57,783 nucleotides of DNA from Lactiplantibacillus dongliensis (GTDB lineage: Bacteria; Bacillota; Bacilli; Lactobacillales; Lactobacillaceae), in NCBI RefSeq assembly GCF_005405105.1, contig NZ_BJDK01000022.1, positions 1-57,783 of the forward strand. The letters run 5' to 3'. The position numbers were made by a program, and so were the translations under genes. Positions 4,762 to 54,216 of this stretch are shown piece by piece; within the stretch, counting starts at the first letter, position 1; each line of letters opens with the position of its first letter. The notes below the pieces were generated by a model. The model made no database searches and was not told the origin of the DNA. It worked only from the letters and a program-made list of their open reading frames with translations.

Positions 4762-5172
4762 AGTGCTAACCTCTTTCTGTTTCTAAATAAATTGTCCTTT
4801 ACCACCCTGCCCGCATCGCCTGGCGTTAATTAGCGGCTGATAAATTAGTAAACATTCATTAACCCACTAACCTTTAGCCGAAAGGATGGTTGCTAAAACG
4901 CTTAGCCGTATCGTTGGCCTTAGTGCGTTTTAGCAACTAACCAGTAGGCGGCAAAGCCAACTGGTTTTCAACCGATTACCTTATTTTTTAAGTATAAATC
5001 GATCACGCGATTAAAATTAATTATAGCATAGCGCATTATCAGGCGTGACTTCTGGGCATGCAAAAACGGTCAACTAACTAAAGCGGCCAACCGTCATCAT
5101 CTGATAAAGCGCCCTCATTTCCAATTTGAGTAGTGTATAATAGAACTAAATTTTAGAAAAGAAGGTTATCAC
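4762..5172. other. Intergenic region ecsA/hit with three consecutive hairpins
   Basis: 411 bp without a gene. It carries CCTTT-agccg-AAAGG (4871-4885), a perfect 13-bp inverted repeat GTTGCTAAAACGC / GCGTTTTAGCAAC (4889-4901 with 4925-4937), and CCAGTAGGC...GCCAACTGG (4941-4964), followed by T-rich sequence. The right part holds the hit promoter. The hairpin cluster could be a structured RNA, a repeat or a regulatory leader. Confidence 0.6.
5136..5141 (+). promoter_or_regulatory. -10 box for hit operon
   Basis: TATAAT about 30 bp upstream of the hit start; no good -35 hexamer is seen at 17 bp. The only consensus -10 in the right place. Confidence 0.5.
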
Positions 5173-7149: not shown

Positions 7150-7162
7150 GTTGGATTTAGAA

Positions 7163-7200
7163 TGCCACTTTGGTTGGGTCAGCATCGGCTGGAACCAACC
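7163..7200 (+). repeat. 5' fragment of the dispersed structured repeat
   Basis: GCCACTTTGGTTGGGTCAGC then ATCGGCTGGAAC match the left end of the about 150-bp element found whole at 15143-15294; similarity stops after CTGGAACC. Lies between the convergent prsA and yhaM. Confidence 0.6.
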
Positions 7201-7232
7201 GGCAGGCGACAACTAGCACCAAACGTATATCC

Positions 7233-11943: not shown

Positions 11944-11987
11944 GCTGGTTGTCACCCCTTGTCTTGAAATTTGATTAGTTGTACTTG

Positions 11988-12138
11988 TCGCTCTGGCTGG
12001 CCTGGATTGACGCTGGAACGTGGTGGCCACGTTTGCGAGCCAAAGTACAGTTTCGCCAGCCGGGCTTTGACTAATCCGAGTAAAATCACTCGGCTAAGTC
12101 AAACGACACCACTGAGCGGCATCCAGTCCGCCCTGTGC
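11988..12138 (+). repeat. Dispersed structured repeat, full copy B
   Basis: About 150 bp sharing the blocks CTGGAACGTGG, CCACGTTTG, GAGCC, GCCGGGCTTTGACTAA and AAACGACACCACTGAGC with copies at 15143 and 44569. Internal helices: AACGTGG/CCACGTT, GCGAG/TTCGC, TTTGACT..CCGAG/CTCGG..AGTCAAA, and terminal CTGGAT/ATCCAG. Read in the plus direction, that is antisense to yhaO, yhaN and yheA. Confidence 0.75.
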
Positions 12139-12351
12139 TAGTAAAACTCATTCTTGAATGCTTGATGCCAGTTAAAATTGCTGCCTGCCGGTTGCTGAAA
12201 GGCCATGAGCCATTGTCCCAGCCGATGCTGGACCAACCAGAGTGGCAATTTAAACCAACTAACACCAAGCGTATTCTTGAAACTTATTTTATTAAGGTTT
12301 CGTTGATAACTGCGATTAACCTGCGACCGGTATCGCCACCTACCTGCTCTC
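12139..12351. other. Intergenic stretch upstream of yhaO, downstream of yheA
   Basis: Apart from the two repeat copies nothing coding is convincing; short frames here have no ribosome site. A yhaO promoter should lie between 11950 and 12404 but I see no consensus pair. Confidence 0.4.
12217..12250 (-). repeat. 5' fragment of the dispersed repeat, inverted
   Basis: On the minus strand TTGCCACTCTGGTTGG and AGCATCGGCTGG, the left-end signature; similarity ends within the first helix. It faces copy B head to head about 80 bp away. Confidence 0.6.
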
Positions 12352-15142: not shown

Positions 15143-15294
15143 TTGCCACTCTGGTTGAGCCAGAATCAGCTGGAACGTGGTGACCACGTTTTTGAGCCAT
15201 AGGTCGGCCTCAAAAGCCGGGCTTTGACTAAGTCGGAAGAATCACCGGCTTAGTCAAACGACACCACTGAGCCAATCCTGACCCGCCCGGCGTT
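15143..15294 (+). repeat. Dispersed structured repeat, full copy C
   Basis: Best-preserved copy. Helices: AACGTGG/CCACGTT (15174-15180 with 15184-15190), TTTTGAG/CTCAAAA (15190-15196 with 15209-15215), TTTGACTAAG-CGG / CCGGCTTAGTCAAA (15223-15236 with 15244-15257), then the conserved tail AAACGACACCACTGAGC. The terminal helix CAGAATC/ATCCTG is partly degraded. No coding potential. Lies between pbp2A and the small basic gene. Confidence 0.8.
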
Positions 15295-17602: not shown

Positions 17603-17655
17603 TTTCAAACGTGGCTACCACGTTCCAGCCGATGCTTTGCCAACCAGAGCAGCAA
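17603..17655 (-). repeat. 5' fragment of the dispersed repeat
   Basis: On the minus strand GCTCTGGTTGG, AGCATCGGCTGGAACGTGG and CCACGTTTG, that is the left end plus the whole first helix, then similarity stops. It directly follows the lysE terminator. Confidence 0.65.
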
Positions 17656-21414: not shown

Positions 21415-22584
21415 ATGTTCAAGCATAAATTTTGGTCTTTACCACGGGGCTATGCCTACACTGCCCTGTCTTATTTCGGCATCGATAGTCTGTGGGTCAT
21501 TTTCCTACAACAACACGGCCTGTCACTAGTTCAAATCGGCCTGTGTGAAAGCATTTTTCATCTCACTAGTCTCCTATCAGAAGTCCCTTCTGGTATCTTG
21601 GCCGACCATTTTAGCTACCGCACCAACCTGATTAGTAGTCGCGTAGCCGCGGCGCTACATGCCATCATCATGCTCACCGCAACCAACTTCTGGTGGTTTG
21701 TCTTTGGTTTTGTCCTGCAAGCTTGGGCTTATAACTTACAATCCGGGACGTTGGAAGCCTGGTTCTATGAAACGCTCGCTGACGATCAGGCAACCGAACG
21801 TTACCCGCAAGTCACGAGCAATATGAATACCCTGATTGAACTCGCCAATGCCCTCGGTGTTTTAATTGCGGGCTGGCTAATTCATGGCTATTTAGCAGCT
21901 ACTTACTGGAGTGACTTAGTTATCGCCATCGTCACCATTGCGGTTATCTGGCGGCTGCCAGAACCACAACACCGTGGCACCAGTGCCAATCGTTTAAGCT
22001 TATGGCAGCTCTTAACTACCGCATTAACTTGGCTGCGCAAGTTACCGAAACTGACCTATTTGATGAGCTTTCACGCGGTATTCAGCGCAATTGGCATGAC
22101 CTATTATTACTATTTTCAAGCTGTCATGACTAACCACGGCTTTAAAGGGCCACTCATTGCCGGTATCTTGATTACCGTAGCCGTACTCAACGTCTTCGGC
22201 GTCCAACTAACCCCGCATTTACAACGTCGCTGGCCACCAACTAAATTATTGTTGGGACTGACCGGCTGCCTACTAGTAACACTGCTACTAATGGGCTGGG
22301 GCCAACTGACGTTATTAGTCGGCGGTTATTTACTGGTCAACATGTTGAACGCGATGGTAGAGCCCTTAATGTCGACTTACTACAATACTTTGATGCCAAG
22401 TGCACAACGGGCAACGTTGCTAAGTATCAGCAGTATGATTTTTAGCCTCGTCATGATTGTGATGTTTCCCGCAATTGGTTGGCTAATTGAGCAGCTTGGC
22501 TTTGCGACGACCTTTAGCTGGTTAGGTGATCTATTGCTAACTAGCGGTCTTATATTAAGCCTACGCGTTGTGCTAGTTAATTAA
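21415..22584 (+). CDS. MFS transporter, tandem copy 2
   Basis: 389 aa, paralogue of the preceding gene with the same topology and motif order (L-A-D-H-F-S-Y-R here). The clearest differences lie in the first helices (D-S-L-W-V versus A-G-L-W-V) and in the central loop, suggesting diverged substrates. GGAGGG ribosome site before the ATG. Intact, although an IS982-type remnant starts within about 75 bp of its stop. Confidence 0.88.
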   Translation: MFKHKFWSLPRGYAYTALSYFGIDSLWVIFLQQHGLSLVQIGLCESIFHLTSLLSEVPSGILADHFSYRTNLISSRVAAALHAIIMLTATNFWWFVFGFVLQAWAYNLQSGTLEAWFYETLADDQATERYPQVTSNMNTLIELANALGVLIAGWLIHGYLAATYWSDLVIAIVTIAVIWRLPEPQHRGTSANRLSLWQLLTTALTWLRKLPKLTYLMSFHAVFSAIGMTYYYYFQAVMTNHGFKGPLIAGILITVAVLNVFGVQLTPHLQRRWPPTKLLLGLTGCLLVTLLLMGWGQLTLLVGGYLLVNMLNAMVEPLMSTYYNTLMPSAQRATLLSISSMIFSLVMIVMFPAIGWLIEQLGFATTFSWLGDLLLTSGLILSLRVVLVN

Positions 22585-22658
22585 CCAAAATCTTTAAAGC
22601 ATAAAAACAGCCTAAACAGGCTACACTTCAAGCATTCTAAGACTTAGAGGTGTTAGCT

Positions 22659-23531
22659 ATGTTAGGCCAACTAAATTCTACCCAACTTAATGTTCAATTA
22701 CAATCTGAACTTGAAAAATAGCTTCAAATTATTCAACCTTTATACTTGTCGTTTGTTCCGCAATCTATCCAACACCGCCGCAATATCAAGCAGGCCAAGC
22801 TTTCAGACCAATTGATCATTGCCCTAATGTGCTGGCAAGTCGATCTTAAAATAACCGTTCAAACTCGCTTTTATCATTTCTTGGAAACCTGTGTTTTTCC
22901 CAAAGGAACCTTACCAGAACGCTCAAGATTCAATCGCTTATGTCATTTGGCAGGTAAGATTATTCAGTTTATTCGTGTTGGCTTAACCAAGACCGCAATT
23001 GGTGAACTAACCTATACGATAATTGATAGCTTACCAATGCCGGTTTGTGAACCGATTAGAAATCTTCGGGCTAAAGCATTTCGAGATACTGCTAATATTG
23101 GTTATAACGCTACTAAGAGAATGCATTATTACGGTTTTAAAGGCCACTTTGAAATTAATGATGACGGGCTTATCTTAGCTTACGCAATCACTAAAGATTC
23201 AATTCATGACATTAAATTGGTTAAAACTCTTTTGAATGAATATCCAAGCCCACAAGTCTTGGCAGATGTTGGTTATTTAAGTAAAGCACTAAAACAAGAC
23301 TTGGCAAATCAAGGAATTGACTTCTGGACACCAGTTCGGCGAAACATGCGACAACCTAAGCAAGACCAGCGTTTTCTAGTCCAAAAGCGCCGAAAAATTG
23401 AAACAGTGTTCGCACAATTAGTTGATCTATTTGATATTGAACAGTTTCGAGTTTGGTCTTTGAGCGGATTCCAATCGCGATTTGAATAATGTCTGTTGGT
23501 GCATAATCTGAGAATATTGGGGATTAACTAG
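22659..23531 (+). pseudogene. IS982-family transposase, two nonsense mutations
   Basis: Reading from ATG 22659 (AGAGGTG upstream) gives MLGQLNSTQLNVQLQSELEK, then TAG at 22719-22721, then an uninterrupted 247-codon frame, then TAA at 23487-23489 (R-F-E-stop) with matching frame continuing C-L-L-V-H-N-L-R-I-L-G-I-N to TAG at 23529-23531. DDE residues remain: I-I-D-S-L-P, L-A-D-V-G-Y, R-R-K-I-E-T-V. Both stops fit Gln codons changed by single C to T steps. The full protein would be about 290 aa, as in IS982 elements. Terminal inverted repeats are not clear; the element spans roughly 22590-23560. Confidence 0.85.
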
Positions 23532-23587
23532 CACAACGCGTTAAGCCTATATTTTAAACGAATCACACAATAGTAATAAAGAAGTAA

Positions 23588-42101: not shown

Positions 42102-42172
42102 AGCGGGTGACGAGAATCGGACTCGCGACTCAAGCTTGGGAAGCTTGTATTTTACCACTAAACTACACCCGC
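42102..42172 (-). tRNA. tRNA-Gly (anticodon CCC)
   Basis: 71 nt. Acceptor GCGGGTG pairs with CACCCGC. Anticodon arm CAAGC-TTCCCAA-GCTTG gives CCC. T-arm CGAGTCCGATTCTCG. No encoded CCA. Reads GGG codons only, an isoacceptor not found in every lactobacillus. Confidence 0.93.
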
Positions 42173-43947: not shown

Positions 43948-44568
43948 TTTCGCACTCCTTTCGTTAAATGACTTAGTCCCTGTTATCATGCGGATTTGGG
44001 GACAGTACCTCAAGCAAACTTTGGTAGTATACCAGCTTTAGTTCGTTAATACTAGTTATTAATCCGCAATTATAAATTAAATTATTATTACAGCGATTAA
44101 TGATTTTCAGTTCAGTCATTGACCTTATTGCGCGTGTTTTTTTCGGATTTAGGCCAAGGCCAGTTTCGAAGATCGTTCTTTGGCTTCAAGATAACCCATG
44201 GCGCTCCAACATTTTAGAATCCAATCAGCAGGTGGCAATTTCAATCAACACCAGGTGCATTATAGATACAATATTGTATTAGTCTTCAATCCACCTGAGC
44301 ATCAGGATAAATCGCTTGTATTCTACAATTACTGATTGTTTATGATTCAGTCTACCTTTGATACTGACTAAAGTTACCGCCTAACAGTTACTTCTAAAAC
44401 GCTGAAATATCAGCAACCATTTCAAAATATATAGTTCTCCGAAACCAACTTGAACCCCTGTTTGAAAGAAATGCTTACAACCAAGTTCAGCAACACTTCA
44501 GCATCGTTCAAGAATCAACTTCTCGACTAAAATAACCGTTTGAACGGTTTTACAAGTCCGGATCAACT
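43948..44568. other. Non-coding stretch upstream of MATE gene
   Basis: About 620 bp. A/T-rich, no frame with a ribosome site or recognisable product. Between 44100 and 44520 stop codons are frequent in all frames; possibly a decayed gene. Confidence 0.4.
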
Positions 44569-44721
44569 AACGCCGGGCGGACTAGAATCGGTTCAGTGGT
44601 GTCGTTTATCTTTGCCGGTGTCTTTCCGGCTTAGATAAAGCCCGGCTTGTGAGACCGCCCTTCGGCTCACAAACGCGGCCACCACGTTCCAGCCGATTCT
44701 AGTCCACCCAGAGTGGCAACC
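44569..44721 (-). repeat. Dispersed structured repeat, full copy D
   Basis: Minus strand: terminal GGTGGACTAGAATCGG pairs with CCGATTCTAGTCCGCC over its whole length; then AACGTGG/CCGCGTT, TTGTGAG/CTCACAA, TTTATCT..GCCGG/CCGGC..AGATAAA, and tail AAACGACACCACTGAACC. Helix sequences differ from copies B and C but pairing is kept. Confidence 0.8.
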
Positions 44722-54136: not shown

Positions 54137-54142
54137 TTTTAG

Positions 54143-54216
54143 GGCGGTATGTGGGAATCGAACCCACGCGTGCCGGAGCCACAATCCGGTGCGTTAACCA
54201 CTTCGCCAATACCGCC
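54143..54216 (-). tRNA. tRNA-His (anticodon GTG)
   Basis: 74 nt including the G-1 that pairs with C73; acceptor GCGGTAT/ATACCGC. Anticodon arm CCGGA-TTGTGGC-TCCGG. T-arm GTGGGTTCGATTCCCAC. No encoded CCA. Confidence 0.95.

Follow-up and report, generated by a model that had tools for sequence, protein, structure and literature searches.

The contig NZ_BJDK01000022.1 of Lactiplantibacillus dongliensis (RefSeq assembly GCF_005405105.1), analysed here over positions 1 to 57,783 (the window), carries several copies of a dispersed intergenic element of about 150 bp, hereafter the module, which had been proposed from its letters alone to be a structured RNA with covarying helices (the original prediction). 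Scanning with R1, a covariance model of 53 base pairs built from 42 Lactiplantibacillus modules, recovers the three predicted copies, with edges displaced by at most three bases. The main one (15143–15293, + strand, 142.6 bits) is a solo module of type A, devoid of terminal inverted repeat (TIR); the second (11985–12138, + strand, 138.2 bits) belongs, from its alignment rows, to the B subtype, i.e., it bears GATTGACG in the outer stem and a CCCTGTG end; and the third (44570–44719, − strand, 152.8 bits) is again a module A without TIR. The model also detects a weak and divergent module that was absent from the original prediction (44090–44238, − strand, 48 bits, E 6.9e-11).

These copies belong to a large family. 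The 15143 copy gives 280 preliminary candidates in its own genome, and the 40 of these 280 that were scored all match it with 86–100% identity. The P2 core CGTGGTGGCCNCGTTT is found at 226 places when one mismatch is allowed (reversed control, 0) and the 20-mer core 236 times with at most two (control, 0), i.e., about 76 per Mb in this 3.1-Mb genome, the latter count being the tally of one pattern only; a figure of some 370 modules per genome was dropped, as it derived from contigs richer than average. Within the genus, the 20-mer core is found in 9 of 21 genomes, including that of L. dongliensis itself, with 295 matches in L. songbeiensis (genome G017) and 97 in genome G001. Among the named records listed, it occurs in L. 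songbeiensis, L. daoliensis, L. nangangensis, L. pingfangensis, and one Arthrobacter, the last perhaps by chance. The covariance model and the scan of Lactobacillaceae that the original prediction had proposed yield many further copies. Indeed, R1 matches (E ≤ 0.001) are present in 83 of 301 Lactobacillaceae genomes and in 13 of 40 genera, in a scan with strict filters and at most 10 candidates scored per genome, so that copy numbers refer to the genus only. In an order-wide sample of 295 genomes, part of which belongs to other families, the 11 genomes with a match are all Lactobacillaceae. The placement is intergenic, only 3 of 173 modules lying inside open reading frames (ORFs) of at least 100 amino acids. 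No module is matched by Rfam at gathering scores in the window, nor around the 15143 copy up to E 5, nor in 20 loci from relatives, and no published description of the family was found among the matches listed in a literature search by title and abstract opening. A phage or plasmid origin was discarded, the 15143 copy being without match in the phage and plasmid collections. In four genomes of one other genus, many of the matches listed (at most 10 per genome) are clustered on one or two contigs (G174, contig 139; G274, contig 32; G299, contig 20; G151, contigs 1 and 15), behind which a plasmid or an island is possible.

A single fold describes the family. Alignment of 167 modules with MAFFT followed by RNAalifold gives one structure, in which P1 closes the module and the P3 and P4 hairpins stand at a three-way junction, P2 being formed by GTGGTG paired with CACCAC. 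Mapped on the 15143 copy, in its own numbering, the helices occupy 10–31/126–147 (P1), 35–40/120–125 (P2), 41–56/64–80 (P3), and 81–94/103–116 (P4); folded alone, this copy adopts a partly different structure. Single-sequence folding beats shuffled sequences in eight folds (z −3.5 to −7.9; both strands were folded for 15143 only, and one of 200 shuffles equalled one fold). In the young set formed by the 167 modules, 4 pairs, all in P3/P4, exceed a tree-based null. In 42 diverse modules of types A, B, and W, both sides have changed in 28 of 53 pairs, and many stem positions are fixed beside varying neighbours. The 34 matches gathered from other genomes (25 loci, 16 of them in five other genera) show changes on both sides in 45 of 53 pairs; 93.5% of the cells are paired, against a mean of 68.8% in shuffles and at most 48.6% in slid structures, and the covariation score reaches 0.642, against 0.163 and at most 0.124, respectively.

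The covariation test that the original prediction had called for was carried out on 91 rows from seven genera, leaving out three wrong-strand echo rows, with a null of our own, modelled on the idea of R-scape, based on a tree and 200 simulations. With rows from other genomes being the best matches (74 loci), 29 column pairs are significant at E ≤ 0.05, namely 26 of the 53 in the model (13 in P1, 2 in P2, 4 in P3, and 7 in P4) and three that extend or refine these helices. The cmsearch alignments lean to the model, yet this model derives from one genus and most rows from others. The tree of the 91 rows holds 377 single-branch switches between Watson–Crick (WC) pairs, and unpaired positions are also preserved across genera, as is the G-T opposition 31/126, present in 88 of 91 rows. 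This confirms what had been observed, namely a dispersed intergenic element of about 150 bp, in many copies, that retains its pairing despite sequence change and covaries significantly; the interpretation attached to it is partly supported. The predicted P1, P3, and P4 pairings are real and co-vary. The local P2 hairpin AACGTGG/CCACGTT is not retained, being WC in only 275 of 621 cells among the 91 relatives and having no covariation support, and GTGGTG/CACCAC, previously seen as a mere possible pseudoknot or switch, turns out to be the real P2 helix (526 of 546 cells paired, 96 double-sided changes). The comparison of many relatives settled this point, for which the three window copies alone were insufficient. 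The family is a large set of lactobacilli repeats, outside Rfam, in which a single fold can be studied through hundreds of naturally occurring compensatory changes.

Such a fold can belong to RNA or to DNA. In an RNA helix, G-U is tolerated on the transcribed strand, while the corresponding A-C is not. Among the 4482 cells formed by the 91 rows and 50 pairs (3 of 53 pairs, WC in under half of their cells, were set aside), 4230 are WC (94.4%), 60 G-U (1.3%), and 106 A-C (2.4%), whereas G-U amounts to 26 of 343 pairs (7.6%) in 16 tRNAs from the compared stretches, a control made with ARAGORN, which gives standard pairs only, so that its A-C count is zero by construction. In the young set shared with L. 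songbeiensis, 51 pairs with a WC consensus contain 124 G-U and 211 A-C, and the well-kept G-C pairs among them 74 and 76. As G-U is rarer than A-C, the strand folded in the original prediction shows no preference for wobble pairs; the A-C excess is the one remaining sign of a single folding strand, and it lies far under the wobble level of tRNAs. Modules between co-directional genes follow the gene direction in 42 cases and oppose it in 36 (p 0.57), the contexts of the 151 modules with both neighbours known being 45 convergent, 42 with, 36 against, and 28 divergent, as counted with crude ORFs. Moreover, the gap orthologous to 15143 in L. songbeiensis holds two opposite modules (L140, 1042–1191, + strand, and 1247–1402, − strand).

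A structured RNA, acting in cis (stability of untranslated regions, attenuation) or in trans, carried by mobile elements and selected on the transcript, would agree with the strong cross-genus covariation, which exceeds the phylogenetic expectation of our null, with the unpaired positions kept, and with RNA folding z-scores of −3.7 to −7.9 on the four strands tested. The predominance of A-C over G-U would suit folding of the complementary strand rather than of the predicted one, and 40–51% of the copies of the bcr repeats are reported within mRNAs (PMC3446304). However, the modules show neither a strand-specific wobble, with G-U well above A-C, nor a fixed orientation to transcription, one gap of the sister species holds both orientations, and Rfam gives no match; we therefore regard this explanation as unlikely. 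The function at the RNA level that had been drawn from the kept pairing is thus unsupported, and a DNA palindrome is a better fit than a strand-specific RNA. Since DNA palindromes and RNA structures look alike in covariation screens, such repeats may be misread as RNA families, and the near absence of G-U could provide a simple test to tell the two apart. A terminator-linked element was also considered, 23 of 202 modules having an upstream terminator-like hairpin on the same strand and 16 having one on the opposite strand (0.95 after shuffling); it was rejected because these hairpins are too few to define the element, though above chance, as at gene ends. By eye, the modules of other genera at loci L236–L241 (G068), L242–L245 (G302), and L216–L225 (G287) often come directly after terminator-like hairpins.

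The pairing data also bear on an explanation without any selection on the fold, in which template switching, or repair templated by the hairpin, would maintain the complementarity of the arms during replication, with gene conversion spreading the variants. The near-exclusive WC pairing, the 377 WC-to-WC switches, and the paired changes found in both arms of orthologous copies speak for it. However, template switching should also mend bulges and mismatches, yet the unpaired positions and the G-T opposition are kept across genera, and many stem positions are fixed while their neighbours vary. We consider it improbable.

The arrangement of the modules points to mobile elements. Pairs of modules within 600 bp in L. 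dongliensis and related stretches are convergent (+−) in 71 cases, against 1 in −+, 2 in ++, and 6 in −− arrangement; in the loci of other genomes, from a hit list read by hand, we count 19 +−, 0 −+, and 3 ++. In Lactiplantibacillus, one subfamily has the layout of a miniature inverted-repeat transposable element (MITE), i.e., a TIR of 17 bp, ACGCTTGGTGCTAGTTG, a module A, a spacer, a divergent inverted module W, and a second TIR. We found 54 TIR pairs, 35 of them delimiting 386–405 bp, and the TIR motif CGCTTGGTGCTAGTTG occurs, with at most one mismatch, at 113 places in the genome of L. dongliensis (control, 0). The complete MITE (left TIR, right TIR, and W end) accounts for 49 of 200 modules, mostly near 400 bp. 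Among the 47 distinct TIR pairs of less than 600 bp, 28 are flanked by a target duplication, taken as a score of at least 5.5 in our own scoring, the other 19 falling below it, while shuffled TIR pairings give a mean of 0.91 and a maximum of 3 (200 shuffles). These duplications are of 8–9 bp in 20 cases out of 28, of 7 bp in 5, and of 10–11 bp in 3. An exact empty site is found in L. songbeiensis opposite 66122–66507 of contig 8 of L. dongliensis; a second candidate, opposite 3050–3445 of contig 1, faces diverged sequence. Two other models were abandoned: a TA duplication of the IS630/Tc1 kind, as longer duplications were found, and an A…B element with a fixed interior, as 14 A…B spacers (gap of 100–400, modules above 90 bits) are unrelated at E 0.01.

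A partner for these ends exists. Genome G009 carries an insertion sequence (IS) of about 958 bp with the same 17-bp TIR as the MITE and a 290-amino-acid IS982-family transposase (NF033520, 219 bits for a cut-off of 130; PF13612, 79.2 bits for a cut-off of 27). In L. dongliensis, contig ends carry the MITE-type TIR beside non-module sequence matching the ends of this IS; known from these ends only, they pair into two insertions, with the repeats AGACGTTC and ATTTAGT. The MITE and the IS982-family IS have their TIR in common, the former possessing two structured modules instead of the transposase gene. Some MITEs are proposed to be mobilised by resident IS with similar ends (PMC3049150, PMC2267715). 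Judging from these sequence matches, an IS982-family transposase very probably moves the MITE in trans. The window itself contains a related IS982-family copy (22563–23541), whose 17-bp ends, ACGCGTTGTGCTAGTTA, are close to those of the MITE and whose transposase frame has a stop codon. IS256 was rejected as a partner, PF00872 having no match in L. dongliensis or L. songbeiensis, and so was a RAYT, Y1_Tnp having none in L. dongliensis. Y1_Tnp also gives 0 matches in G001, G009, G287, G128, and G068; it is present in 7 of 13 genomes, i.e., in L. songbeiensis (three matches), G002, G013, G007, and G302, which bear modules, and in G018 and G019, which have no R1 module match. Two very similar TnpB-like genes of about 398 amino acids, named by eye (L123, contig 8, 81534–82727; L098, 4221–5411), each lie within about 1 kb of a module, one of them at the site of a module pair of the sister genome. 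A transposase-like frame of 459 amino acids is found on a short contig of L. dongliensis (L177, 3341–4717).

Comparison with L. songbeiensis gives access to the turnover of the modules. For 73 modules of L. dongliensis tested, against a target that also held a few stretches of L. daoliensis, L. nangangensis, and L. pingfangensis, both flanks could be mapped for 33, with the same module in between in 21 cases, another one in 5, and none in 7. Several differences between the two species consist in a missing interior with the ends left in place, once with a near-perfect join of the outer ends, so that a TIR insertion behind every difference was rejected. Such missing interiors would be losses rather than gains. 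Three remnants stand in the window. Facing the 11985 module, 12225–12272 (− strand) retains a module outer end and a TIR (12256–12271, one mismatch) without the interior; it was detected by nhmmer as paired with this module (20 bits, gap of 79), R1 giving 10.7 bits at 12225–12248. At 7162–7225, the first 30 or so module bases are joined to a far end with TIR, as seen in alignment with stretch L049 (R1, 15 bits at 7162–7205; TIR, 7210–7225), and a longer element occupies the L. songbeiensis site. At 4879–4954 (− strand; R1, 21.4 bits; same alignment), an element remnant corresponds to two modules in L. songbeiensis. Solo modules have a sharp start at TTGCCACTC and stop close to CGTTAA, and the sequences on either side are unrelated; our guess is that they could be one-armed remnants.

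Modules also diverge in place. In 5 of the 21 orthologous loci, the module differs at 15–20 of about 150 positions, mostly at variable stem sites of both arms and in loops. In these five loci, similarity to the ortholog is 0.87–0.90, and to another copy of the same genome 0.93–0.99, while the flanks within 120 bp are at 0.99 in two of them. Ectopic gene conversion would explain this in-place divergence best. The remaining 16 loci all have a module no less similar than its flanks within 120 bp (16/16), which is compatible with constraint or homogenisation; over the 21 loci pooled, modules are at 0.948 and near flanks at 0.925. The 16/16 loci, with the five diverged ones left out, the pooled values, and the intergenic placement would all suit domesticated sites of the REP/BIME kind, in which a nucleoid, repair, or topology protein would bind the palindromes and selection would maintain them. 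However, species differ widely in whether they have the modules (the core is found in 9 of 21 genomes of the genus), several sites lack the interior in one of the two sister genomes, and homogenisation by conversion would raise identity too. This makes maintained binding sites very improbable. Thanks to the in-place swaps and the convergent pairs, how such a repeat spreads and is homogenised can be tested directly between sister species.

We propose that the family is probably a mobile structured DNA repeat, in which folded-DNA modules serve as arms of mobile elements, the IS982-type MITE being its clearest form. The module would be an imperfect palindrome that, in single-stranded or extruded DNA, folds into the P1–P2 stem and the P3 and P4 hairpins around the three-way junction. 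Convergent pairs would represent the arms of non-autonomous elements, the best-defined ones being MITEs, mostly of 386–405 bp, with an A module and a W module between their TIRs. An IS982-family transposase with matching TIRs would act on them in trans and leave target duplications mostly of 8–9 bp. After insertion, deletion of one arm or of the interior would produce solo modules or bare ends, and copies would recombine by ectopic gene conversion, swapping module variants in place. The fold would thus form as DNA in the cell and be selected for that; it may serve in recognition by the transposase or by another protein, or may be a by-product.

The finding that the original prediction had named as overturning it, a MITE bounded by terminal repeats and flanked by target duplications, is indeed there for part of the family, with its 17-bp TIRs, its duplications at 28 of 47 pairs, and its IS982 partner. 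Several observations weigh against our own proposal. Of 200 modules, 87 have neither TIR, nor W end, nor conserved flank. Among the 33 modules mapped in L. songbeiensis, none of the solo ones was seen to face a clean empty site; the sole IS982 match of that species is decayed, with 9 stops, although its assembly may have collapsed intact copies. In three of the five diverged loci, the flanks themselves reach only 0.81–0.91. The excess of A-C over G-U (106 and 60, p 0.0004; 211 and 124 in the young set) points to wobble on the opposite strand, which would not be expected if the constraint were purely two-stranded, and two of the alignments (A3 and A4) were made by fitting to the covariance model, which favours the structure. 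A broader reading is possible, though doubtful: the whole family, with matches in 13 genera and alignments from 7, might be a class of DNA selected for its shape, defined by the three-way junction and near-strict WC covariation, which would act when folded, as single-stranded or cruciform DNA, have its own route of spread, giving solo and paired modules that lack TIRs, and exchange its variants in place, the IS982 MITE then being a late hijacking.

A mobile structured DNA repeat of this sort has several known counterparts. Integron attC sites are folded DNA whose shape is kept while the sequence varies, with extrahelical bases, and in this they resemble the module; unlike attC sites, the present units are arranged face to face, with long motifs that do not vary. 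REP/BIME sequences also occur as many palindromic intergenic copies, in inverted pairs, as in the present family. However, REP units measure 20–40 bp (PMC3733652) against about 150 bp for the module, and the genome of L. dongliensis has no Y1_Tnp match. The bcr1–bcr3 repeats of the Bacillus cereus group are likewise described as dispersed intergenic elements of about 150 bp, MITE-like and with a conserved fold (PMC6542083, PMC3446304), with a length given as 147–167 (PMC2267715). By description, they are set apart by a mobility tied to a TTTAT motif and by their restriction to one species group (PMC6542083); unlike them, the present modules form convergent pairs, have IS982-type TIRs and mostly 8–9-bp duplications, and extend over 13 genera. 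ERIC, NEMIS, BOX, RUP, and SPRITE are also presented as high-copy intergenic repeats with strong folds (PMC3049150, PMC2267715), from which the module family, compared by description, differs by its three-way junction, its dozens of co-varying pairs, and its hosts. The family belongs beside bcr1, ERIC, NEMIS, and BOX/RUP, from which three features set it apart, namely its three-way junction, its convergent pairs, and how broadly it covaries.

In other genera, the modules have conserved outer sequences of their own, for example, TACGTTTAGTCAAGGGCAGATTGTGG in G287, as judged by eye. In the window, a partial module comprising the first third is present at 17603–17655 (− strand; nhmmer, 32 bits, positions 1–53 of the seed profile), outside the R1 hits. 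The only two Rfam matches in the window at gathering scores are the genes for tRNA-Gly(CCC) (42102–42172, − strand) and tRNA-His(GTG) (54142–54215, − strand).
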